From Methanotrichaceae archaeon (lineage in GTDB: Archaea > Halobacteriota > Methanosarcinia > Methanotrichales > Methanotrichaceae): 38,857 nt of DNA. Positions 12,044-27,731 of this stretch are shown here, one piece after another (within the stretch, counting starts at the first letter, position 1; each line of letters opens with the position of its first letter). Both the position numbers and the translations under genes were made by a program. The notes under the pieces are model-generated. The model was not told the origin of the DNA. It saw only the letters and a list, made by a program, of their open reading frames with translations, and did no database searches. The stretch spans positions 1 through 38,857 of the forward strand of contig JABLXE010000019.1 of NCBI GenBank assembly GCA_013178225.1, given 5' to 3'.

Positions 12044-13702
12044 TCAGGTGATGGTGTAGTCCAGGGTTAGCTCCCGGCCCGTGGTATCGCCATCATCCCA
12101 GTTCTCGGGATCGTCCACAACCTGGCACTTTACCTGGTTACTTCCAACGTCACAATAAATCGTCCTCCATTCCCAGGAGTTCTGCTGCTTCCAGCCGCTC
12201 ATGTCCCGCCAGACGTTGGCCGTTCCCGGCCCCTTCAGCCAGAAGCGGTAGTAGATATTGGCGGTCTTGTTGGCGGTAGCAAGAAAGGTGATGGTGGTCT
12301 CCTTCAGCTGGGGGGATTCAGGGGTCGGAACCAGCGAAGAGAGGCTGGCTCGTGAGACAGAGATGGTGGCTGTGGCCTGGGCATCGTAGCTCTCCACTCC
12401 GGAGTGTTTTCCGTCCCTCACCCAGCAGCGGATGTCGATTGAGTCATAGTCCAGGACCTGCAGATTGTACTCTGTCCAGTTCCTGGGCTGCCACTCGGTG
12501 AGCGCCTCCCACAGGTTGGCGCCGCTCCTCTTGACGAAGAACTTGTGGAGGACGAGGTCTCCCTCGGCATCTGACGCATGGGCGATCAGGTGCACCTTTT
12601 GATCCACGAAATAGGGAGAGCTCTCCTCCAGGGAGACACTGCTGATGGCAGGAACGGTATTGGGAGAGATGGTATAGCTGAGGGTGGCGTGTTCATCAAA
12701 ACCTCCCGCGCTGGCGTGCTTGGTGTCCCTCACCTGCACTTCAACGGTGTTCTCGCCCACATCAGCCAGGGCAGGCACCCAGGACCAGGAGTTCCGGCCT
12801 GACCAGTCCCGGACTACCTTGGGCTTTCCATCTGTTGCCGGCCCGGTGAGGATGAAACGATACAGCAGGGGATCGTTCTCCGGATCGGAGGCCACGCAGA
12901 TGAACTCCAGAGCGGTGCCGATTCCACGCGGGCTGGCCAGGCTGGGGTAGAGGCCGGTGATGACAGGCAGCTGATTGGAGCCTCCTCCGCCTCCTGAGGG
13001 CACAGTCAGGGTGAAATCTGCCGAAGCTTCGGCGTCGGCAGCCGCCCGGTTCCTGCCGCCCCTGATTTGGACCTTCACGGTGGAGTCGCCTATATCCTGC
13101 TCTGAGGTCTGCCAGGAAAAGGAGTTCTTTGCAGACCATCCGGTCATATCCCGCCAGGCGTCTCCGGTTCCAGGACCATTCACCAGAAAGCGGTACTGCA
13201 GCCCCTCGGCAGGCGAAGCGGAGGCAATCCAGACCACCTTGCTGCCAGCCTCTTGCGGAGATTCAGCGCTGGGAGAGAGGCTGAGTGTATAGTTGGCTTT
13301 GATGTGCCCGTGAACCTCAAGACAGCAGCGGTAGGCCACGATGGCCTTGTCGAACTTCACCTCTCCGGAAATCTTGGAGACGGCCACAGCTGTCTCTCCC
13401 TGGCCGAAGCCATCCTGTAAAAGCTCCTTGATGGCCTGCACGATCTCCGAGCAGTACTCAGCCCCGTGGTCTGGCCCATTTTTGCTTCGGATGTCCACGA
13501 TGAAGACCGGATCGGAGGAGATCCGCCCTCCCTCCCAGTCCTTGACCTCACAGGATATGAGGCTCTTGTGCTCGGTATTCCTGAGATCCGGGCCGGACTG
13601 CTCCAGTGCCCGGAACTTGTAGATCCTGCCGTCCACCATTCCGGATACGCCGGTATCAGCGGACAGAGCATCGGCCAGCGCCTGTAAATGAGGATGGCTC
13701 AT
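12044..13702 (-). CDS. Tail-terminator-like domain fused to Ig-like domains
   Basis: A 552-aa protein. Residues 1-~135 resemble tail-terminator/neck proteins (DUF3168-like): LQALADALSADTGVSGMVDG, GRIYKF, PVFIVDIRSKNGPDHGAEYC, then IVQAIKELLQDG. Four Ig-like domains of 95-110 residues follow, each with a YRF or HKF strand and WRDMTGW/W..RNSW motifs, spaced by linkers such as PSGGGGGSNQLP. Terminator proteins cap the tail or neck; Ig domains on virions usually help surface attachment. The ATG overlaps the holin stop only by ATGA geometry with the upstream gene, showing one operon. The N-terminal match is moderate. Confidence 0.55.
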   Translation of the reverse strand: MSHPHLQALADALSADTGVSGMVDGRIYKFRALEQSGPDLRNTEHKSLISCEVKDWEGGRISSDPVFIVDIRSKNGPDHGAEYCSEIVQAIKELLQDGFGQGETAVAVSKISGEVKFDKAIVAYRCCLEVHGHIKANYTLSLSPSAESPQEAGSKVVWIASASPAEGLQYRFLVNGPGTGDAWRDMTGWSAKNSFSWQTSEQDIGDSTVKVQIRGGRNRAAADAEASADFTLTVPSGGGGGSNQLPVITGLYPSLASPRGIGTALEFICVASDPENDPLLYRFILTGPATDGKPKVVRDWSGRNSWSWVPALADVGENTVEVQVRDTKHASAGGFDEHATLSYTISPNTVPAISSVSLEESSPYFVDQKVHLIAHASDAEGDLVLHKFFVKRSGANLWEALTEWQPRNWTEYNLQVLDYDSIDIRCWVRDGKHSGVESYDAQATATISVSRASLSSLVPTPESPQLKETTITFLATANKTANIYYRFWLKGPGTANVWRDMSGWKQQNSWEWRTIYCDVGSNQVKCQVVDDPENWDDGDTTGRELTLDYTIT

Positions 13703-14130
13703 CTCTTCTCTCCAACCTGAGTGTTATGCAGCTTCTCCAAAGCAGCTTTCAGAAACTCAGGCAATGGCACGCCGAGACGGCCCATGTTCTCCAGAGCGCT
13801 CAAGGACTCGTTGGCGATGAAGAACATAATCACAGCCGTCCGCAAGTACGGCTCTTCCAGGCCGGTGGAGACGTCAACGATATTGGCCACCGCCACCATC
13901 AAAAAGATGCAGACCTTTTTGATGATGCCCTTCATGCCGATCTCGGAGTTCAGACTCTTCTCGACATAGGCTGCCATCACCCCGGTGATGTAGTCGATGA
14001 CCACCAGGGCGATTAACGCCTGCAGAACCGCATCCCATCCCCCAAACAAGTAAATCCCCACCGTTCCTGCTCCAGCCAGGCCCAAACGGCCCAGCTCGGG
14101 CAGCTTCTCAATTATCAATCCTTCCGCCAT
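13699..14130 (-). CDS. Phage holin, toxin-secretion/holin-4 type
   Basis: A 143-aa protein. Hydrophobic spans are LGLAGAGTVGIYLFGG, VLQALIALVVIDYITGVMAA, CIFLMVAVANIVDV and TAVIMFFIANESLSALENM, ending in PEFLKAALEKLH. The motif IDYITGVMAA ... GMKGIIKK ... ANESLSALENMGRLGVPLP is diagnostic of the Bacteriophage_holin_4_1 family. Holins oligomerise in the membrane and time lysis or let lysis enzymes out. I prefer the ATG at 14130; a GTG at 14139 is also open. It lies between the connector and tail-terminator genes, an unusual place for a lysis gene. No endolysin is recognisable in the cassette. Confidence 0.85.
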   Translation of the reverse strand: MAEGLIIEKLPELGRLGLAGAGTVGIYLFGGWDAVLQALIALVVIDYITGVMAAYVEKSLNSEIGMKGIIKKVCIFLMVAVANIVDVSTGLEEPYLRTAVIMFFIANESLSALENMGRLGVPLPEFLKAALEKLHNTQVGEKR

Positions 14131-14506
14131 ATCCCACACCCCTGTAGAACATCGGCTCCCGGCTCAGCGCCTGGCTGCTGTAGCCAGGTGAGGGTGGAGC
14201 CTCTTCGTAAACCTCTTCTCCGATCTCACTTCTCAGCTGCACTGCCAGCTTGAGGTAGTTCTCCGACTTCTTGGCAGGCGAATTGTTCAGATCCCCCACG
14301 TACTCCACCGCATCTCTGGCGAACCGGGCCGCCAGAGCCTCACAGGCCTCGATGGATGCCAATAGGATGTTTCCGGAGTGCTTTTCCAGGAAGTACTGCA
14401 CCTCCTGGTCGGATAGCAGGGGATCGTCCTGCCTCACGTCCCCGATCTTGAGACGGAGGGCATCTCTCGGCGACCCGGCTGGGTCATCGGTATAGGTCCA
14501 GGTCAT
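14108..14506 (-). CDS. Head-tail connector (gp6/gp15-like adaptor)
   Basis: A 132-aa protein that starts YTDDPAGSPRDALRLKIGD, then DDPLLSDQEVQYFLEKH and ACEALAARFARDAVEY. This is the helical head-completion/adaptor family (HK97 gp6, SPP1 gp15), which binds below the portal and joins head to tail. The gene order capsid then connector is standard. It overlaps the holin gene by 23 bp. The C-terminal ~30 residues are Pro/Gly-rich and probably disordered. Confidence 0.8.
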   Translation of the reverse strand: MTWTYTDDPAGSPRDALRLKIGDVRQDDPLLSDQEVQYFLEKHSGNILLASIEACEALAARFARDAVEYVGDLNNSPAKKSENYLKLAVQLRSEIGEEVYEEAPPSPGYSSQALSREPMFYRGVGYGGRIDN

Positions 14507-14530: not shown

Positions 14531-15505
14531 TCAGGCGATCACGCTTGCAGCGTAAACGCCCAAGTCGGCAGCCACCTGCTTGCAGTCAAAGGCTATCTCG
14601 CCCTCAATTCTGTCGGACTCCACATTCTCCATGCGGAACTTCTTGATGCGTGCTCCGAACTTGTCGGCCCCTGAGTAGCCCTTCCAGCTGAATATGTACC
14701 CAGCCGACGGGTTCATAAGAGAGGGCTTGTCAGGTGCATAGCAGAGCAGGATTTTCTTGCTGACAATCCTCTGGAAGGTTCCTGCTTTGCCTTTGGCGGC
14801 AGTATTCACCACGCCACGTGGCACCAGGAACTTTTGCACACCGAAGAGCTCGGCCAGCAGCTTTTCGGTGACCACGCCCTTCTGGGTGTACTTGATGGTG
14901 TCCTTAATTTCCTGACTCACTTTCAGGGTAGCCAGGACGTCAGGGGCGCAAACCAGGATGGTGGGCTCATAGCCCGTGACACTGGCTATCTGTTCCTTCC
15001 AGTCCTCGACGTTTTTTAGGATGGTTGCAGTCGAGTTATCCCATTGCTTGAACTCCCCAGCTCCCGGCGTTCCGGAGACGCCGGTCAGGTTGGACCCCCA
15101 AACATTGGTCATGTAGGTGCTGGCCCAGATTCTCTCCCTCTTAAGGAGCATCTTCTGGGAGACGAAGAGCGTGCCGTCCCGGTCGGCATCAATGGGCTTG
15201 TCCTGGTTTGCCCTGGTATCATCGTCGATGTCCTTGTGGAAGGCATACTTTCGACAGAAGAAGTTGGGAGTTGTGTCTATCTCATAGCTGCCGCCCGCGC
15301 TTTCGGTTCCGGGTGCCCTCTCCTGGGCCTCGTCCCTCATCCAATCTTCTTTGGAGTACACAGGATAACGGTCGCTCTTATTTTCCACAGCAACTACTGG
15401 GAAGGCGTCGGCGGCCACGAAAGCAGTCTGCTTCTGGATATAGACAGTTTGGATGTTCCCAAGCAGTCGGTTTACGTGAACGTCACCAGCGGTAGGTTGA
15501 GGCAT
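14531..15505 (-). CDS. Major capsid protein, HK97-type
   Basis: A 324-aa protein whose position, size and sequence fit an HK97-fold capsid protein. The N-terminus VNRLLGNIQTVYIQKQTAFV leads to the E-loop-like part. The middle shows ERIWASTYMTNVWG and a P-domain strand set, GYEPTILVCAPDVLATLKVS. The A-domain stretch is VTEKLLAELFGVQKFLVPRG, ending EGEIAFDCKQVAADLGVYAA. It assembles the icosahedral shell after protease maturation. The ATG follows a strong ribosome site (GGAGGTGA, 8 nt away), which matches the high output expected of this protein. It has no long N-terminal scaffold; a separate scaffold gene is upstream. Confidence 0.85.
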   Translation of the reverse strand: MPQPTAGDVHVNRLLGNIQTVYIQKQTAFVAADAFPVVAVENKSDRYPVYSKEDWMRDEAQERAPGTESAGGSYEIDTTPNFFCRKYAFHKDIDDDTRANQDKPIDADRDGTLFVSQKMLLKRERIWASTYMTNVWGSNLTGVSGTPGAGEFKQWDNSTATILKNVEDWKEQIASVTGYEPTILVCAPDVLATLKVSQEIKDTIKYTQKGVVTEKLLAELFGVQKFLVPRGVVNTAAKGKAGTFQRIVSKKILLCYAPDKPSLMNPSAGYIFSWKGYSGADKFGARIKKFRMENVESDRIEGEIAFDCKQVAADLGVYAASVIA

Positions 15506-15522: not shown

Positions 15523-16248
15523 TTACATCAAAACGACTAGCAACACGCCTTCGCCCTCCGCAAAGGCGGTGACATTCGAGGCCTCAATGCTGATGGTATC
15601 GTCAGCATCAAAGACGTTGTTCCCGGTGATGGCGGTCGCATTTACCACCGTTCCCAGGGTTCCGCAGTTGGCACTGGTGAGAGCCAGCACTCCGCCCGAT
15701 ACATCGGCCGAGTTGATCTCCAGGTTGAGCGTTGCCGCCTTGTCTGCTGTGGTTACCGGATCGGTAACAGCAAGCGAGGCCTTCACGATTCTCCCCGGAA
15801 ATCCCGGCGTGAAGCTGGTCAGCAGATCGCCGTTGGCAACTTTGGACAGCTTAACCGGAATGGAGAGAATGCTCTTCTGAATGGCTCCGGAAGTGGCCCG
15901 AGATAACACATAAACGCTGCAGATATCTCCGGCCGATCCGGATTCAGCAGCTACAGCCACCACAGCATCGTTGCCAGTTGCCGGAACCAGCCTGCCATCG
16001 GCATCAGGTGTCAGGTTCTGGCCTGGAGTCACAATGGCTCCAAGAACGGCCATGCTCTTTCCCAGTCCGCAAACTGCTCCCACCTGGCCGAGGCCAGGCT
16101 TGTCCTGCAAAATGCCCAGGGCATTTTCCCCGGCTCCGGAAAGAACGGCATGACCAGAGGCATTGAGCTTCACGCAATGGAACTGCCTGGCCGAGAGGTC
16201 GGCGCCAGCAATTACGCTGGTATTATAGACGATCTCCTCGACGGCCAT
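15523..16248 (-). CDS. Capsid decoration/cement protein (DUF2190 plus C-terminal domain)
   Basis: A 241-aa protein. Residues ~1-120 match DUF2190 capsid cement proteins: AVEEIVYNTSVIAGADLSAR, then NALGILQDKPG and VTPGQNLTPDADGRLVPATG. A second beta-domain follows (~125-241; VNATAITGNNVFDADDTISI), resembling trimeric capsid-surface domains. Such proteins bind at threefold sites and stabilise the expanded shell. The start is the ATG of a TGATG junction with the scaffold gene. The two-domain form is longer than the usual ~110 aa. Confidence 0.75.
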   Translation of the reverse strand: MAVEEIVYNTSVIAGADLSARQFHCVKLNASGHAVLSGAGENALGILQDKPGLGQVGAVCGLGKSMAVLGAIVTPGQNLTPDADGRLVPATGNDAVVAVAAESGSAGDICSVYVLSRATSGAIQKSILSIPVKLSKVANGDLLTSFTPGFPGRIVKASLAVTDPVTTADKAATLNLEINSADVSGGVLALTSANCGTLGTVVNATAITGNNVFDADDTISIEASNVTAFAEGEGVLLVVLM

Positions 16249-17105
16249 CACTTTCCACTCCTCTTTTTAAAAGCAGCTTCCCGTTCTTCCTCATAGCGAG
16301 AATAGAGCTCTGGATCATCCTCCAGAACCTTGCAGATCGCTTCTTCCTGGGTAAGACTGGCATCCTTTGCCACCAGGCTCTTAGCCCTGGCATAGACCTC
16401 CGCTTCAGCACTGGTCTCGCCGGCACCGGACTTGCCGATCTCCCGGAAGAGATCCGACTTCTCCAGGGCAGCATCGGCAGCCTTGAGAACCTTGTAGATC
16501 TCCCCAAACTCGCCGGGATGGCTCTCGCCCAACGCCTTCAGAACCAGCCCGAACTTTTGCGGGTCGATGGGCAGATGGGGGAGTGCCTCTGCCTTGGCCA
16601 CGTACTCTTTGAGGATCTTCTCCTCCTTCAGCTCCTTGGCCACCTTCTCGGCCGCCTCAGCCTTGGCCTCGGTGGCAGCGTTCTTTTCCAGAAGCTCCTT
16701 CACAATGGCCTGAGTGGCTGGATCCATCTTGGCAATGGCCTCTTTGGATAGTTCGCCCGCAGCATCTTCCTCGGCCTTCTCTTTCCCGCCTTTGCCTTCA
16801 TTTTCGGGCTCGGGCAGCCCGCAGGCCTTGGCCAGAATCTGCAGGCTCTCTTCGGGCAGCTCGTCTTTGTAGGCCTTGAGCAGCTTTGCTGCAGCCTCCA
16901 TGACCCCGGCCGCCTCGCCCTCCAGGTTGGCCTCTTTCAGGATCCTGGAAACCTCGCCCTCATCGGTCTCCAGGATAGCCTTGATAATATCATCCTTCAA
17001 CTGTCTGTCCTCCTTCACCAAGAAGTACTTCTTCCGGTTCGCCCCACGCGGAACGAACGAGATGAAGTCCACTTTCACCTCACGCAAATCGAATTCTCGG
17101 GACAC
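16248..17105 (-). CDS. Prohead scaffold protein
   Basis: A 285-aa protein. The N-terminus VDFISFVPRGANRKKYFLVK matches the segment (...VPRGAN...) that normally follows an XkdF-type protease. The remainder is Ala/Glu/Lys-rich coiled-coil (EKNAATEAKAEAAEKVAKEL), typical of scaffolds. In many phages protease and scaffold form one chain; here they are separate frames overlapping by 26 bp, with a GTG start inside the protease gene. It probably fills the prohead and is cut out by the protease. Confidence 0.75.
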   Translation of the reverse strand: MSREFDLREVKVDFISFVPRGANRKKYFLVKEDRQLKDDIIKAILETDEGEVSRILKEANLEGEAAGVMEAAAKLLKAYKDELPEESLQILAKACGLPEPENEGKGGKEKAEEDAAGELSKEAIAKMDPATQAIVKELLEKNAATEAKAEAAEKVAKELKEEKILKEYVAKAEALPHLPIDPQKFGLVLKALGESHPGEFGEIYKVLKAADAALEKSDLFREIGKSGAGETSAEAEVYARAKSLVAKDASLTQEEAICKVLEDDPELYSRYEEEREAAFKKRSGK

Positions 17106-18561
17106 GCAAACCGCGCCCTCCGATGCTGAAAGACCGATATTCTCCGGACTTCACCTTAGCCCAGATACGGTCTGCAAAGACCTTCACGCCCATGACCCAC
17201 GAACAGGCTTTGATCGCTTCACCAAGAAGGATCGTAGCCTCTCGCTGAATCCATGATTCGACTGGTACAGCATCGACCGCCCTCCAATCATGCCGCTCAT
17301 CGAACTTCCTGGAGTTCAGCATATAGTTGTGGGCCATCTCTTCGATGGTCTCTGCAGTCATTATGTCACCTTGAGCATCGACGGTGTCAGGCTCGGCGAT
17401 CACGCTGTAAACCAAGCGCCTCTCCACATCGGCCTTGAAAATCGGACAGCGGATCTCCTCCTTTCCGACGAATCCCCTTTTACATCCGCAATTATTTAAC
17501 CCCTGTGCAGTCAGCGCTTTACCTAGCAGCTGAGCCTTCCTAAAGACTTCACCAGAGTCTCCATGCTTCAGAACAGCATGCGGATGGGGCATGGCCAGAT
17601 CGGCCAGCTCCCCCAGAGCCTCTCCGGCCTGCTTTCCGAGAGCCACCACCGTTTGGGGGCTGAGGTTCTGCAACTGCATCATCAGCCACGGTCTCCAGGC
17701 TGTCACTTCCTCAGCTTTTGGCGCTCTCTTCAACACTCGGGGAACCAGATAGAGGAAAGCTGTCTCGTCTTCCTGCAGGCCAGCGGGCTCCAGGTACGCT
17801 TTGCGGAAGAACCTCCGGCCCTCACCGGCCAGGGGCACTCCTCGGGCCGCCTCAATCTCGTTTGGCGAGCTGGCGATGAAGACGACCTTGTTATTCTGCT
17901 GGCCGATCACCGGGATGGAGAGGCGTGGCAGTGTCTCCTTTCTGACAGAGGAGGCTTTCAGGGTTGCCCAATCCTCTGAGCTGCCCTTCTGTCTGGGTTT
18001 CAAGAGGTCCTTCACCATCAGTCCCTCGGAGCCTGAGCGGGATAAAGCCCAGCGGCTCACTATCTCCAGCTCTTTTCTGGAAGAGAACTCCCTTTGCGGA
18101 GTTAGCCGGATCAAGGGACTATCGATATCGTGAACCGCAGCCTTCAGGATCTCCCGGCGCTCGCCAAGCGGCCTCAAGCTCAGGTCCTGGTCCAGGAAGA
18201 GGCAGTCTGAGGCCACGAAGAGGGCGGGAAACCCTGGCTCGCCAGTAGGCAGAGCTGCCAGGTGATCTTTGGACAGGACTCTTCCCTCGGCAACGGCCAA
18301 AGCGACTCCATCCAGAATCAGCGCCTCGAATGGTGCCTTCCTGATGGCCTCGGCCAGCTCTGGATGTTGCCTGGCCAGGTCCTCGTCTCCTTCGAATCTG
18401 ATCCTGGCATCATCTGAATACTTGGAAAGCGAGCACCTGCAGCCATCGAACAGCGGCTCTGCAGCCAGCCTGGCCTCCTCCTTCTTACACCACTGCCAAA
18501 GCTCCTCGATGCTCTGCATATCCCGGCCAGGGGTCTGGGGCGGTGCTTCTGGCAGGTTCAT
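17080..18561 (-). CDS. Triple fusion: inactive DNA-ligase-like domain, UDG-like domain, XkdF prohead protease
   Basis: A 493-aa single frame. Residues ~15-205 follow an ATP-dependent DNA-ligase adenylation domain: PLFDGCRC (motif I with Leu37 in place of the catalytic Lys), ILDGVAL (Glu replaced by Val86), SDCLFLD, SEGLMVKD (178-185), WATLK (198-202). Residues ~215-335 follow a family-4/5 uracil-DNA glycosylase: VVFIASSPNE, RGVPLAGEG, LSPQTVVALGKQAG, PHPHAV. Residues ~365-493 are the XkdF/herpes-type protease: DTVDAQGDIMTAETIEEMAH, FDERHDW (His), VESWI (Ser), GVKVFADRIWAKVKSGEYRS. The start ATG overlaps the portal stop (ATGA). Protease matures the capsid; roles of the two DNA-enzyme-like domains are unknown. 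Confidence 0.7.
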   Translation of the reverse strand: MNLPEAPPQTPGRDMQSIEELWQWCKKEEARLAAEPLFDGCRCSLSKYSDDARIRFEGDEDLARQHPELAEAIRKAPFEALILDGVALAVAEGRVLSKDHLAALPTGEPGFPALFVASDCLFLDQDLSLRPLGERREILKAAVHDIDSPLIRLTPQREFSSRKELEIVSRWALSRSGSEGLMVKDLLKPRQKGSSEDWATLKASSVRKETLPRLSIPVIGQQNNKVVFIASSPNEIEAARGVPLAGEGRRFFRKAYLEPAGLQEDETAFLYLVPRVLKRAPKAEEVTAWRPWLMMQLQNLSPQTVVALGKQAGEALGELADLAMPHPHAVLKHGDSGEVFRKAQLLGKALTAQGLNNCGCKRGFVGKEEIRCPIFKADVERRLVYSVIAEPDTVDAQGDIMTAETIEEMAHNYMLNSRKFDERHDWRAVDAVPVESWIQREATILLGEAIKACSWVMGVKVFADRIWAKVKSGEYRSFSIGGRGLRVPRIRFA

Positions 18562-19937
18562 GCTTCCGCCTCCTCGGCATCATCCAGCTCGGGCTTCGCT
18601 CCCTGCCTCTGGTCCTGCTCGGAGAAGGCTGGTCTCTCTTCGGTCCTGGCAGGCTCATGCTTGGTGTCACGGATAGGCAGATCGGCCAGGCCCCGTAGAT
18701 GATTCTCCAGCCGCTCGTCTGGGAATAGCTTAATGCCAGCCTTGGTGAGCTTCTGGATGTACTCGCCCAGGACTTCCAGGTTGGGCAGCTCCACCTTGCC
18801 GTGAGCAATGTAGGATAGCTCCTCTAAATCCCACCAGGGATTGAGTTCGAAGAGGGTGGGCACCGCCTGGCTGTTTATGGTCTCAGCAATATTGTCCAGC
18901 ACCGATGTCAAGGCCTGGTAGAACATCCTGGCCTTGGTCTCTGAAAGTGCATAGGATCCTTGCTTCTGCTGGCCAAGCAGCAGGAAGTCGGCCATGATGG
19001 TCAGAGCAATTCTGGTGTCATATCTGCTGATTATCCGGCTGGTATCGAACTGACGAACACCGGGCGAGGAAGTGAGCTTGAACTCGTACAGCCTGTTGCC
19101 ATGATCGTCAAACACTGAAGGCAGCAGCAGCCCTTCCGCCTCATCCCGCCTGACATTGGTGATCAGGTCGAAATACTCTTGGTAAGCCTCTTCGGCTTCG
19201 GGAGTTTCTCGCTTCATGATCTCCAGCGGGAGGTAAAGCGTCGGATATCCGACCATGTCCCTCTCCAGGCCCATTCCTTCAATGTCCTCGATGTTGGTCT
19301 TCATGTACCAGGAGCGGTAGGAGTTCCTCAGGATCGACCGTCCTTCTGGATTGCCTTTGGCCGAAGTAGTGACGAAGTGCAGCGCTTTGTCCAGAGGGAT
19401 CCTCCTCTCCTGATAGTCTGGGGCCGGTGTCTGGCTCAGGCCCAGGAGCTGGTCGGTCTCCTCATCGTAGATCCACTGGTTGAACGACTCTTGGGCACGA
19501 GGAGCCCATTTCAGCCAGCCGATTCTGCCATCATTATACTGGCTCCTGTATTTGGGAGACTTCTGTTTCGGCCCCCGGCGGAACTTGAAAATGGTCTCCA
19601 GATAGGCCCAGCCGAATGGCAGCATAGATAAGATTTCATCAACGGTCGAGGGCCAGGGGGAGGCCATGTCGTACAAACACGATTCTAAGAACTTGGCCGC
19701 CTCCAGGTCCTCGGGCTCGTTTCCTGCCGGAACCGCAAACCAGGGTGCAGATTTGCATATCTCCCGAAAGGCGAACAGCATTCCGCCGATGATGGCGTCG
19801 CTGTCGGCCATCTTCTTGTAGATCAACGCTCCTTTAGAGCCCTGCAGTTCGGCCAGCCATTCCTCGTAGATGTAGCCTCCGAAACGGGTTAGACCAGTTC
19901 GGCCCAGTTCGATCAGATGACGATTTTTCTTGCTCAT
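18558..19937 (-). CDS. Portal protein, DUF935 (Mu gp29-like)
   Basis: A 459-aa protein. Family features: MADSDAIIGGMLFAFREICK, then VDEILSMLPFGWAYLETIFK, LHFVTTSAKGNPEGRSILRN-SYRSW, GLERDMVGYPTLYLP, and the C-terminal QQKQGSYALSETKARMFYQA. The portal is the dodecameric ring through which DNA is pumped and to which terminase docks. I chose ATG at 19937, just after GAGGTAGA; a frame opening at 19985 runs into the terminase end. The C-terminal ~40 residues are acidic and disordered. Confidence 0.85.
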   Translation of the reverse strand: MSKKNRHLIELGRTGLTRFGGYIYEEWLAELQGSKGALIYKKMADSDAIIGGMLFAFREICKSAPWFAVPAGNEPEDLEAAKFLESCLYDMASPWPSTVDEILSMLPFGWAYLETIFKFRRGPKQKSPKYRSQYNDGRIGWLKWAPRAQESFNQWIYDEETDQLLGLSQTPAPDYQERRIPLDKALHFVTTSAKGNPEGRSILRNSYRSWYMKTNIEDIEGMGLERDMVGYPTLYLPLEIMKRETPEAEEAYQEYFDLITNVRRDEAEGLLLPSVFDDHGNRLYEFKLTSSPGVRQFDTSRIISRYDTRIALTIMADFLLLGQQKQGSYALSETKARMFYQALTSVLDNIAETINSQAVPTLFELNPWWDLEELSYIAHGKVELPNLEVLGEYIQKLTKAGIKLFPDERLENHLRGLADLPIRDTKHEPARTEERPAFSEQDQRQGAKPELDDAEEAEA

Positions 19938-19938
19938 T

Positions 19939-20523
19939 CTACCTCTTCCATTTGCTCCTACCTTTGGACACGCCAGGTGCGACAACCGGCGCAGCTGCCT
20001 GGAAATTGTTCAGCAATTCGACACAACCGCAAACGGCATCCACGATGTCATCGTGTTTTCCGCCCGGAAAATTCACGAACTCTGAGATCAGGGTCTCAGC
20101 CCAGCTCGAGCCCCGGGCGTAGTACAGCTTACCGTTGGCCCCACGGGAGGAAACCAGCAATGAGCGACTCATTTTGTCCGTGCTAACCGGGACAGGAAAG
20201 AAGGCGATCTTCTTCAGCCGGTCATTTCGGATCAATTCCTGGAAGGACGAGAGTTGAAAGCCGTTAGTCTCGCAACCAGCCAGGCGTACATTTTGCTCCA
20301 GAAGCTCATCCACAATGTAGCCATAAGCATCGGGCCATTCCCACCGGCCACGCAGGATGTTGAGAATGAAAATGTTCTGCTTCCCATCGATACCGACAGT
20401 GGCCACCACCGTAAAGTCGGCGCGGGTTTTGGTGCTGGTTGCTAGGTCGATGAAGCTCCCTATTTTTAGGCGGCTACGTTCTATGATCTCAATTTTCGAT
20501 GTGCTGCCGGCTTCGACATCCAT
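19939..20523 (-). CDS. Terminase large subunit, C-terminal nuclease half
   Basis: A 194-aa frame matching the RNase-H-like nuclease domain of large terminases: IGSFIDLATSTKTRADFTVV (Asp26), GCETNGFQ (Glu85), GGKHDDIVDAVCG (Asp158/159/162). It cuts concatemeric DNA at start and end of packaging. It should be fused to the ATPase half but lies in another frame, separated by an 85-bp AT-rich gap. The ATG at 20523 is weak (no clear ribosome site); the frame is open seven codons further upstream. It may be expressed separately, joined by splicing, or be a pseudogene half. Confidence 0.7.
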   Translation of the reverse strand: MDVEAGSTSKIEIIERSRLKIGSFIDLATSTKTRADFTVVATVGIDGKQNIFILNILRGRWEWPDAYGYIVDELLEQNVRLAGCETNGFQLSSFQELIRNDRLKKIAFFPVPVSTDKMSRSLLVSSRGANGKLYYARGSSWAETLISEFVNFPGGKHDDIVDAVCGCVELLNNFQAAAPVVAPGVSKGRSKWKR

Positions 20524-20608
20524 CCATAGCCTCAGGTACTTTTAAGTCAAAACGAATTAAATTAAAATTAATCAAATTAATTCATAAACCAGGCATGAAA
20601 TCTGCAGC
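20524..20608 (-). other. AT-rich insert splitting the terminase gene
   Basis: 85 bp between the ATPase stop (TGA, 20609-20611) and the nuclease ATG. About 50 bases are very AT-rich (AATTAATTTGATTAATTTTA) inside a ~52% GC gene, and the two halves are in different frames. CCTGAG occurs just before and just after the AT-rich part (about 20609 and 20530). It could be a small intron, an insertion relic, or an intergenic gap of a truly split terminase. Confidence 0.5.
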
Positions 20609-21451
20609 TCAGGCGAGGACCTCGACAGGCCGGAAGTACTCACGCCTGAACAGGGCGCCAGCCTTGAGGATTGGGGATTGTTGATATTCTGCTTCCCAAT
20701 CATAGGGGCTTATGTCCGATTTGATAGAGAGCAGAAGCTGCAGAGGATATTTCTCGGGCCAAAGGGCCTCCCCAGGTTGACGGCCAAGGGCATCGTTTTC
20801 CAGGGCAATTGCTGGCAGACGGTATTCGAACCAGGGAAGGGCATATTCGTCGGTAGCGTCTACCTTCCTGGCCAGAAGCCGACCGGGGAGATCATCGATG
20901 TGCCACCTTGTGGCCATGGCGATCACTACGCCATAAGGGGCCCAGGGTAGAGGGTTGAGCCTCGTCCTGGCAGTACCACTCCACCATTCCCAGGTCTTCT
21001 CTCGGTAGGTTGGAGACTCGGCTTGCTCTCGGTTCTTCACAGCATCATCTATAATGAGAGCGTGAGCCGGCTTGCCCGTGATTGCTCCCGAGACGCCCGT
21101 AGAGTTCATGCCCCCTCCATCGGTTGTCTCCCAATGGTTGGCTGCAGCTGAATCGTCGGAGATTCTAACTCGGAGATGATCCGGGTTAGCTTGTATGGTA
21201 TTCCTGACCTTCCTACCCCACGAGGCAGCATAATCAGCCTCATAGGATGCCAGGATGATGGACAACCAGGGGAACAGATCTAGCAGCCAGACGGGAAACC
21301 AGTGCGAGACAAGCTCCGACTTCCCATGCTGTGGCGGCATCGAAATTATGAGGCGAGGGTACTTACCGGCTATCGCCAGGGCCAGGATCAAAGAGAGACT
21401 TTCCAGGTGGCGGTATAATCTCCACCGCCCTTGGCTGAGGTGCTCCGCCAT
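20609..21451 (-). CDS. Terminase large subunit, N-terminal ATPase half
   Basis: A 280-aa protein. Walker A is MPPQHGKSEL (~38-47), followed by FPVWLLD and IILASYEADYAASWGRKVRN. Walker B is ALIIDDAVKN, coupling motif VIAMATRWHIDDLPGRLL, and the closing LPAIALEN, GEALWPEKYP, WEAEYQQSP, all typical of the Terminase_6 ATPase. It ends at FRREYFRPVEVLA, where the nuclease domain should begin. The start is uncertain: ATG 21451 lies about 13 nt after GGAGGAG inside the small-subunit gene; the longer frame to 21916 is antisense-like sequence in the small-subunit reading frame's shadow. Confidence 0.75.
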   Translation of the reverse strand: MAEHLSQGRWRLYRHLESLSLILALAIAGKYPRLIISMPPQHGKSELVSHWFPVWLLDLFPWLSIILASYEADYAASWGRKVRNTIQANPDHLRVRISDDSAAANHWETTDGGGMNSTGVSGAITGKPAHALIIDDAVKNREQAESPTYREKTWEWWSGTARTRLNPLPWAPYGVVIAMATRWHIDDLPGRLLARKVDATDEYALPWFEYRLPAIALENDALGRQPGEALWPEKYPLQLLLSIKSDISPYDWEAEYQQSPILKAGALFRREYFRPVEVLA

Positions 21452-22052
21452 GTTCCCGGGCGTACTCCTCCAGGCGTTTTGCAAGATCTGCTGCTGCCCG
21501 TAAGGCATCGGAGTCTCCGGTGGTGATGATCTGCTCAATGAACCTGTACTCCTCGTGGGTGCTGGTCTCTTTAACGTCGAGTGTTTGCTTTGGCTTGCCA
21601 AGTCCTCGATCGAGGATCTCCTTGGAGTAGGCAAGGATGAGATCCGGCCGGGAACTAGGAAGGTTCTTGAAAGTTCTGATGAGCTTGTCTGCAGCTTGTG
21701 GCGCAAACTGCTCCAGTTTCGCCTTGGCCTGGCGAGCTGGCCGGTCGTATTGAGATCCCACTGAATTTCCCGGCAAAAATTTTCCCTGAGAATCCCGCTG
21801 GCCCGCTGGCTCGGGTTTGCCTCGCGTTCCCGACTGCTTGTGGTTGCAAGCTGTTTTGCCACCTGGACATGGCCCATCCTGTGGCCAAATCGGCCCATCG
21901 GGTAAACCCTTATCAAGATACCTCATCAGCGAGGCTTTGGGCAATCCGACCTCCTGGGCCGCCTTGGTCTCGCTCAAGCCTTCGCCAATGAGTACAGTGG
22001 CACGTTGACACTTGCTGCGGATTTCCGAGTAATCCTTGATCTTCCGGAACAT
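21363..22052 (-). CDS. Terminase small subunit
   Basis: A 229-aa protein. The N-terminal helix-turn-helix reads AQEVGLPKASLMRYLDKG (residues ~33-50), the DNA-recognition element. A basic linker with zinc-like residues follows (CPGGKTACNHKQSG) and then a helical core (ADKLIRTFKNLPSSRPDLIL) for oligomerisation. The C-terminal Pro-rich tail overlaps the ATPase gene by 89 bp. Small terminases bind the packaging site and load the large subunit. The position just before the ATPase gene supports the call. Confidence 0.7.
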   Translation of the reverse strand: MFRKIKDYSEIRSKCQRATVLIGEGLSETKAAQEVGLPKASLMRYLDKGLPDGPIWPQDGPCPGGKTACNHKQSGTRGKPEPAGQRDSQGKFLPGNSVGSQYDRPARQAKAKLEQFAPQAADKLIRTFKNLPSSRPDLILAYSKEILDRGLGKPKQTLDVKETSTHEEYRFIEQIITTGDSDALRAAADLAKRLEEYAREHGGAPQPRAVEIIPPPGKSLFDPGPGDSR

Positions 22053-26852: not shown

Positions 26853-27731
26853 TTAAGCGGTGGCTGTTGCTGCTGCACTGGCGGCTCCCTCCCTCACAGG
26901 CATCTGGCCGGTTAAAATGTACTCGACGGCAGCACGGGCCTGCTTGCTGGCCTGCAGCACCCAGCGCGGGTTATCTTTCAGGGGCTTCAGCCAGGACTGG
27001 ATATAGGCGGACGAATTCTCCACGGTCTCGGGGCTGTCCAGGGCGCATATCTGGCAGAGGAAGGCGGCGCCCATTTCTGCGGTCAGCTCCTCGCGGCTCC
27101 TGGTATCGACTGCCAAAATATAATCTACGATCTCAGAGCGGGCCAGCCTGGCAGGGCCTCCGGTCCAGTGGGTCAATTCATGAAAAGCCGTCGAATAGTA
27201 TTCAGCGGAGTTCTCGAACTGCTGCAGGCCTGGCAGGTAGATGGTATCATCGAAGGGCGAATAATGGGGCTGGCTGGAGTGGTAGCCTATCTTTGGATTC
27301 CTGCGCCTCAATACCTCCTCGGCCTCGGGGATGGTGGAGTTCATCCTCTCAACGGGCACCTTTTCGGGCAGGTTCTGGGTCTGCTCCCAGTTGAAGACCG
27401 TGTAATATTTCAAGAACGGTATTAGGCGGACGATGACCTTTCCATCTGCCGTTTTTTCTTCCTTGGCAAAGCGGTCCACATAAACAATTGGTGAGCCCTT
27501 CTCTCTTGCCTTGACGTGTCCTCCCAGTTTCTGACATTGGCGGAAGGTGAGCCAGTAGGGGCTCTCATAGCCATCTTGCAGCATCAGGGCGTTGATTCCC
27601 TGATACTCTTTCAGGGTCACATAGCTGGTAGGTCCATTGCGGGAACTGGACCAGGTGCGGCGCCAGGGGATCACGCCTTTCTGGAGCTGGCTTAGGATCC
27701 GGTTGGTTACTACCTGAAAAACGTCTTTCAC
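26853..27731 (-). CDS. ardC: ArdC-like antirestriction protein (zincin metallopeptidase domain)
   Basis: A 292-aa protein. The N-terminal DUF1738/ArdC single-strand DNA-binding domain starts VFQVVTNRILSQLQKGVIPW with WRRTW, GINALML and PYWLTFRQCQKLGG, ending YYTVFNWEQT. The C-terminal zincin domain has HELTHWTG (His184, Glu185, His188) and RSREELTAEMGAAFLCQ for the third ligand. ArdC proteins on plasmids, ICEs and phages protect incoming DNA from restriction. The GTG start overlaps the stop of the 48-aa gene (GTGA). It is the last gene of a four-gene operon, with a terminator 64 bp after its stop. Confidence 0.88.
   Translation of the reverse strand: MKDVFQVVTNRILSQLQKGVIPWRRTWSSSRNGPTSYVTLKEYQGINALMLQDGYESPYWLTFRQCQKLGGHVKAREKGSPIVYVDRFAKEEKTADGKVIVRLIPFLKYYTVFNWEQTQNLPEKVPVERMNSTIPEAEEVLRRRNPKIGYHSSQPHYSPFDDTIYLPGLQQFENSAEYYSTAFHELTHWTGGPARLARSEIVDYILAVDTRSREELTAEMGAAFLCQICALDSPETVENSSAYIQSWLKPLKDNPRWVLQASKQARAAVEYILTGQMPVREGAASAAATATA

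Follow-up and report, generated by a model that had tools for sequence, protein, structure and literature searches.

Head proteases of the XkdF kind work inside proheads. In polyvalent proteins, assemblin-like peptidases always lie at the C terminus and have been assigned a role in virion processing; the proteins themselves are predicted to be packaged into the virion and injected (PMC5512222). Few of them occur in archaea, and those above 1000 aa are almost all bacterial (PMC5512222). Here we analyzed a stretch of 38,857 nucleotides of a Methanotrichaceae archaeon (GCA_013178225.1, contig JABLXE010000019.1), referred to below as the window, in which a capsid protease is joined to two folds of DNA repair enzymes.

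A three-domain protein in a head operon

The original prediction, made from the DNA letters and their open reading frames, had placed a ligase-like region, a uracil-DNA glycosylase (UDG)-like region, and an XkdF-type protease in one frame. The gene, its domains, and its neighbors are listed below.

17080..18561, minus strand: whole gene for the dead-ligase/UDG-like/XkdF protein, including the stop; 493 aa (open reading frame list, Pfam, AlphaFold2)
17959..18495, minus strand: DNA ligase adenylation-like domain, aa 23-201 (DNA_ligase_A_M, E 2.3e-12; Foldseek PDB match 4eq5, E 3.5e-14)
17545..17904, minus strand: UDG-superfamily domain, aa 220-339 (Pfam PF03167, E 9.8e-15, 55.3 bits versus a cut-off of 24.3)
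17110..17442, minus strand: XkdF-type head maturation protease, aa 374-484 (Peptidase_S78_2/XkdF, E 4.1e-29, 101.6 bits versus a cut-off of 24)
18569..18575, minus strand: Shine-Dalgarno-like GAGGAGG, seen in the sequence; the ATG shares ATGA with the portal TGA
18558..19985, minus strand: portal protein (Portal_Mu, E 1.9e-25; phrog_113, E 7e-71)
16248..17105, minus strand: scaffold-like protein; its frame and the 3' end of the protease gene overlap (acidic by eye; same place in relatives)
15523..16251, minus strand: decoration/head protein (phrog_673, head scaffolding, E 4.7e-15; phrog_766, head decoration, weak)
14531..15505, minus strand: major capsid protein (phrog_1005, E 1.8e-73)
19939..21916, minus strand: terminase large subunit in two open reading frames, nuclease (19939-20523) and ATPase (20609-21916) (phrog_38, Terminase_6C/6N)

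The 493-aa frame contains no internal stop, and its N terminus is well supported by the GAGGAGG box and the ATGA overlap with the portal stop; a hidden longer N terminus was ruled out, since the open frame leaves only 6 extra codons. The portal, scaffold-like, decoration, major capsid, and two-part terminase genes around it mark the locus as a tailed-virus head operon. The product of 16248-17105 matches phrog_17741/13547 (function unassigned) and, over a short N-terminal stretch, phrog_3017. The same head-gene region of this archaeal virus encodes a protein of a phage holin family (13699-14139, minus strand; PF05105, E 1.2e-43). Elsewhere in the window, the product of 26853-27731 (minus strand) has an ArdC-type look by eye, with the zincin motif HELTHW; this is another hallmark of polyvalent proteins.

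The Pfam matches of the ligase, UDG, and XkdF domains all exceeded the gathering score, and AlphaFold2 returned three folded domains (mean pLDDT 79, pTM 0.44, small alignments), with low confidence at residues 206-214 and 354-371, the loose linkers. When the model was searched with Foldseek, archaeal ATP-dependent DNA ligases were the first PDB matches (E 3.5e-14), and in BFVD a phage UDG (E 2.6e-8, rmsd 2.1) and XkdF proteins were found. The proposed joining of three domains in one frame is thus borne out by profiles and by predicted folds, the adenylation and UDG folds included. Identity to long Methanothrix-type forms was 48-54% for the ligase, 47-52% for the UDG, and 41-50% for the protease. 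Since homologues share the order and are about 48-50% identical to the window protein in each of the three domains, the ligase and UDG domains are not chance matches. Chance similarity or a mis-framed reading frame was ruled out by profile scores, folds, and homologues, and an unrelated scaffold-like extension at the N terminus by homology to full enzymes. In the protease domain, His424 and Ser479 (FSIGG; FSxG) were invariant in family alignments; we infer from S78-type proteases that they would be the catalytic pair of the predicted protease.

Catalytic motifs of the ligase-like and UDG-like domains

In the ligase part, Leu37 (18451-18453) replaces the nucleotidyl lysine of motif I (KxDG) and Val86 (18304-18306) replaces the DGE glutamate, exactly as had been claimed, and motif III FD reads SD (F118S). 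SEGLMVKD, said to persist, is intact. The same had been said of WATLK, where the last motif V lysine survives; relatives read DDWAKFK, and the K-to-T change at 200 has already damaged the motif. An OB domain is absent after the adenylation domain, where the alignment has a gap, and no OB match was found in six frames. A six-frame search of the window for NTase, PE, and OB parts as separate genes was negative, and the PE profile had no match anywhere in the whole genome. The domain therefore has the fold of an ATP-dependent DNA ligase and lacks the KxDG lysine, the DGE glutamate, the FD of motif III, the KxK of motif V, and the OB domain of a catalytic one. Profile matches, structure prediction, and intact relatives agree on the predicted loss of ligase catalysis.

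The best NCBIfam models for the ligase were those of LigD/NHEJ ligases (E 2.8e-12 for the window, 4.9e-24 for an intact relative). A family HMM built here matched the ligase part at E 3e-69, the window sequence being one of its rows. The motif I lysine is kept by every near-full-length ligase in the alignment except that of the window, and this one sequence is the only full-length dead ligase; no second copy was found in IMG/VR.

The UDG-like domain is altered as well. In the phmmer alignment to T. thermophilus UDG (1ui0; also 4zbx), Glu41 corresponds to Ser231 and Asn80 to Tyr270, and Glu47 is kept as Glu237; Glu41, Glu47, and Asn80 are catalytic residues of family-4 UDG. His326, the equivalent of His155, is also kept, the N and H motifs having been placed by family alignment. 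No cysteine occurs between residues 121 and 357 of the protein. The domain thus matches the superfamily profile and lacks three features of family-4 UDG: the glutamate of motif A (GExPG), the motif asparagine, and the four Fe-S cysteines. NCBIfam models of family-4 UDG match it, but far below their own cut-offs. Tyrosine replaces asparagine at this catalytic site throughout the Methanothrix-type clade, including members with an intact ligase. Judged by its sequence, the window protein unites a conserved protease with a ligase fold that is dead and a UDG fold that has been altered.

Intact, shortened, and rearranged relatives

A search for the same architecture elsewhere was rewarded. A provirus in a Methanothrix MAG of the same family as the window genome (JAAZNX010000012) encodes a 1035-aa relative (L044) at the same gene position, with matching neighbors (portal, scaffold-like, decoration, major capsid, and terminase genes). 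Its order is helical N-terminal part, NTase-like region (GS..DxD), LigD-type ligase, OB, UDG, PE-like domain (HxDLR), and XkdF, and its ligase has KFDG (KxDG) and DGE intact. In IMG/VR, about 20 contigs encode such long polyproteins (990-1405 aa). Between the NTase-like region and the ligase, a methyltransferase is present in L082, L084, and L133-L135, and a metallo-beta-lactamase in L146. The gene order on a Bacillota MAG contig is terminase-portal-MuF-polyprotein-scaffold-decoration-major capsid, and on a Micrarchaeota MAG contig terminase-portal-NTase+ligase. The NTase-like assignment in the long forms is based on its motif, the region having matched no solved structure convincingly. Sequence support for PE is weak, most XkdF-clade domains scoring no better than E 0.01 with LigD_N; the three top-ranking profile hits of the PE-like domain in the PDB (E 0.04-0.19) are LigD-PE-type chains. 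A LAGLIDADG intein-like insert of ~350 aa lies in the ligase of L072:4416-8603, next to motif V.

Shorter forms also exist. UDG and XkdF alone are found in L028, L059, and L062, and the two together with a short ligase scrap in L048 (348 aa) and in the L052 group, which begins with a MuF-like cysteine tail (by eye). The L048 terminase has an insert with an intein-like look. Broken copies of the window gene occur in two other genomes of the family (L045:5965-6825 and L046:5867-6715), both near a katG-like gene; one of the two adjoins a transposase-like gene. In the tree of the UDG and XkdF parts, the window protein groups with L052/L048, with full-length forms branching to either side of this group, so domain loss is the simplest reading. 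Among the long Methanothrix-type forms, conservation is highest in the ligase (73-75% versus 65-72% for the other parts). In the window, the ligase may be slightly accelerated, yet it does not appear to drift freely. The dN/dS of the UDG domain is 0.06-0.26 in the sister clade, the same range as for the protease, which indicates that the UDG fold is kept there although the asparagine is gone; Ks to the window sequence is saturated.

The ligase block is also found outside the fusion. In ANMV-1 (KP703175; L229:1913-5800), a named virus of methane-seep archaea, the gene labelled MutT-like hydrolase is in fact a portal (PF06381, E 3.2e-22) and is followed by a gene for an 866-aa protein that matches the profiles built here for NTase-like (4e-7), ligase (5e-21), OB (3e-8), and PE (4e-12) parts; its ligase block has KKFDG, and there is no protease fusion. 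L225:6873-10622, from a second member of this archaeal family, joins ligase-OB-PE to a protease of a different Pfam family, DUF2213, and has the N-terminal part of the ligase in a reading frame of its own; in L226:4209-9292, from elsewhere in the phylum, genes for ligase-PE and for DUF2213 are found close together. The ligase block thus accompanies the portal and the head protease in several arrangements that are independent of one another.

Other XkdF proteins carry different cargo at the N terminus. L153:2-2107 (IMG/VR 3300035130_000086) combines Acb1 anti-CBASS (PF23474, E 2.8e-33; both HxT motifs present by eye) with OB, PE-like, and XkdF domains. InPase (L124), histidine phosphatase plus NUDIX (L174), D12 DNA methylase (L103, L121), and 2H phosphoesterase (L169) precede XkdF elsewhere. 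Acb1, InPase, NUDIX, and methylase are types of activity useful just after entry. Helices like those of encapsulated ferritin (PF22277) front XkdF in L173:3758-5014, L162:4230-5339, and L175:4122-5354. Two further XkdF polyproteins (L181:3192-5945 and L196:3792-7694) have an N terminus resembling tRNA-guanine transglycosylase (DSGGF, by eye), followed in L196 by a ligase; a PDB sequence search with this N terminus of L196 gave no match. In Synechococcus phage Ssp-JY39 (L232:1636-3582), an Acb1-like match at the end of the portal gene suggests a portal-Acb1 fusion. The 'Acb1 labelled prohead protease' of Roseobacter phage DSS3P8 was set aside, its gene of 150 aa being too short for a fusion.

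Interpretation and comparison with known systems

What is established is the architecture, the damage to the motifs, the existence of intact relatives, the slot after the portal gene, and purifying selection on the sister-clade UDG, and of the identity and descent of the window protein we have very little doubt. The most fitting description is a shortened archaeal polyvalent protein, eroded in its catalysis, with a capsid protease at the C terminus. Overall, the best explanation, to which we give a probability of roughly 0.6, is that XkdF is the working part and that the N-terminal two thirds are the eroded remainder of a large capsid polyprotein.

The gene would then encode the protease that matures the heads of a tailed virus whose host is a Methanotrichaceae archaeon, and its ancestral type would be an NTase-like/LigD-type DNA ligase/OB/UDG/PE-like/XkdF polyprotein. 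In the intact form, the C-terminal protease would bring the polyprotein into the prohead and cut it at the linkers. The freed repair domains would remain with the DNA and, after injection, may mend ends, nicks, and deaminated bases by healing and sealing, counter host defense, or do both. The window lineage would have lost the NTase, OB, and PE domains together with ligase chemistry, its two remaining folds perhaps being kept as non-catalytic parts (DNA-binding or prohead-filling). Loading of the repair domains into the prohead is somewhat probable, and capsid delivery appears plausible, as it fits the C-terminal protease, the position of the gene in the head operon, and the anti-defense cargo in relatives. 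DNA sensing at the packaging stage, the other role named in the original prediction, found no support. We infer linker cleavage, a repair role of the intact forms, and a residual role of the window folds; that this role is structural or DNA-binding, and the folds more than a pure relic, we propose only tentatively. The intact long relatives suggest that such viruses load DNA-repair tools into the particle via protease fusion. A broader proposal, which we hold at well below even odds, is that archaeal and bacterial tailed viruses use fusion to a head protease to load a LigD-like end-healing and end-sealing machine (NTase, NHEJ-type ligase, PE, and UDG) that acts on the injected genome before viral expression, the window protein being this machine turned into a dead but retained structural part.

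The stepwise shrinkage from 1035 aa (L044) through 493 aa (window) and 348 aa (L048) to UDG-XkdF only (L028, L059), the damage to four ligase motifs, and the broken copies in genomes G040 and G025 could mean that the N-terminal domains are pure relics heading to loss, without present function, and that only the protease matters. We consider this rather unlikely, because the ligase has diverged from its intact relatives (48-54%) no more than the UDG (47-52%) or the protease (41-50%), and a compact fold is predicted throughout a frame that is open for 493 codons. The persistence of both folds without key catalytic residues would also fit a role inside the prohead, as its scaffold or as a platform for DNA contact, enzyme activity never having been the point in the window lineage; purifying selection on the UDG part of the sister clade and the clade-wide tyrosine for asparagine, found even where the ligase is intact, point the same way. 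However, a separate acidic scaffold-like gene follows (16248-17105), most long forms keep the ligase motifs intact, and the very different N-terminal enzymes of relatives are unexpected from a shared scaffold role, all of which makes such a platform unlikely.

Given that the gene sits in a late head operon, the fused enzymes might instead act late in the infected cell, for example on nicks before packaging, a known need for ligase action in phage T4, with the fusion setting only their stoichiometry. Yet the Acb1 of one relative targets immune signals during infection, the host supplies UDG and ligase, and the protease would bring fused enzymes into the prohead; we regard late action in the cell as distinctly unlikely. 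Hardly any weight can be given to the idea that the ligase- or UDG-like domain is still catalytic through other residues. SEGLMVKD, Glu237, and His326 are kept, and UDG folds can change chemistry, as in UdgX-type proteins, but lysyl-AMP cannot form without the motif I lysine, nor can nicks be sealed without OB; both are absent, and the DGE glutamate and one motif V lysine are gone too. The reading of XkdF as the working part of an eroded polyprotein is the one we retain.

What emerges is a concrete and widespread architecture that couples a virion protease to enzymes of DNA repair or anti-defense, and it includes archaeal viruses, where such large proteins were thought rare. It opens to testing the ways in which tailed viruses, as they enter and with no new synthesis, protect or circularize their DNA. 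Misleading labels are corrected as well, such proteins being annotated as 'DNA ligase,' 'DNA methyltransferase,' or 'hypothetical.'

Among single systems, XkdF of PBSX and ORF12 of psiM2 are of the same protease family and occupy the same slot between the portal and major capsid genes; psiM2 ORF12, however, has only 73 residues ahead of the protease and no repair domains. In phrog_1530 (DNA methyltransferase + XkdF) and phrog_14859 (RNA ligase + XkdF), the label likewise names a nucleic-acid enzyme and XkdF matches the profile in its C-terminal part, but the enzyme is another one and the ligase-UDG pair is missing. The ANMV-1 protein AJP62006.1, annotated as 'ATP-dependent DNA ligase,' has NTase-like, ligase, OB, and PE-like parts in one gene directly after the portal and differs from the window protein in its intact KKFDG and in having neither protease fusion nor UDG. 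Bacterial LigD, the NHEJ ligase, gives the best NCBIfam models for the ligase part and shares the PE-like domain of the long relatives, whereas its domain order is different and its AEP polymerase was not detected in these relatives; of PE, ligase, and AEP, the window protein has the ligase core only. Type-4 UDG and UdgX are matched by profile and fold, but the window domain has no Fe-S cysteines, and its motif A glutamate and motif asparagine are replaced.

The original prediction knew of no described protein with this domain order. Searches of named phages gave no full-length match, and among the papers searched none joined XkdF, DNA ligase, and uracil-DNA glycosylase. Nevertheless, deposited nameless BFVD entries span the whole protein (A0A516MCN4, 478 columns, 28% identity), and the class was published in 2017 (PMC5512222); the window protein is new in description rather than in deposit. 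Polyvalent proteins, too, unite several catalytic domains in a single product of a late operon, an assemblin-like peptidase coming last (PMC5512222). The window protein has at least two catalytic-type domains and belongs to the late operon of a terminase-portal virus, two of the three domains having lost catalysis, and the peptidase is C-terminal (XkdF at 374-484 of 493) if XkdF is taken as assemblin-like. Polyvalent proteins carry Pol-beta NTase, InPase, and 2H-type cargo, as do the XkdF relatives, and include inactive domain versions, such as PBECR of phage Mu (PMC5512222). In contrast, DNA ligase, UDG, and LigD-PE-like cargo were not found by a term search of the main text of that study (PMC5512222), and the archaeal Methanothrix form reaches 1035 aa. 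We conclude that the class itself is already known, and that the ligase-UDG-PE set, the archaeal spread, and the stepwise decay are new.
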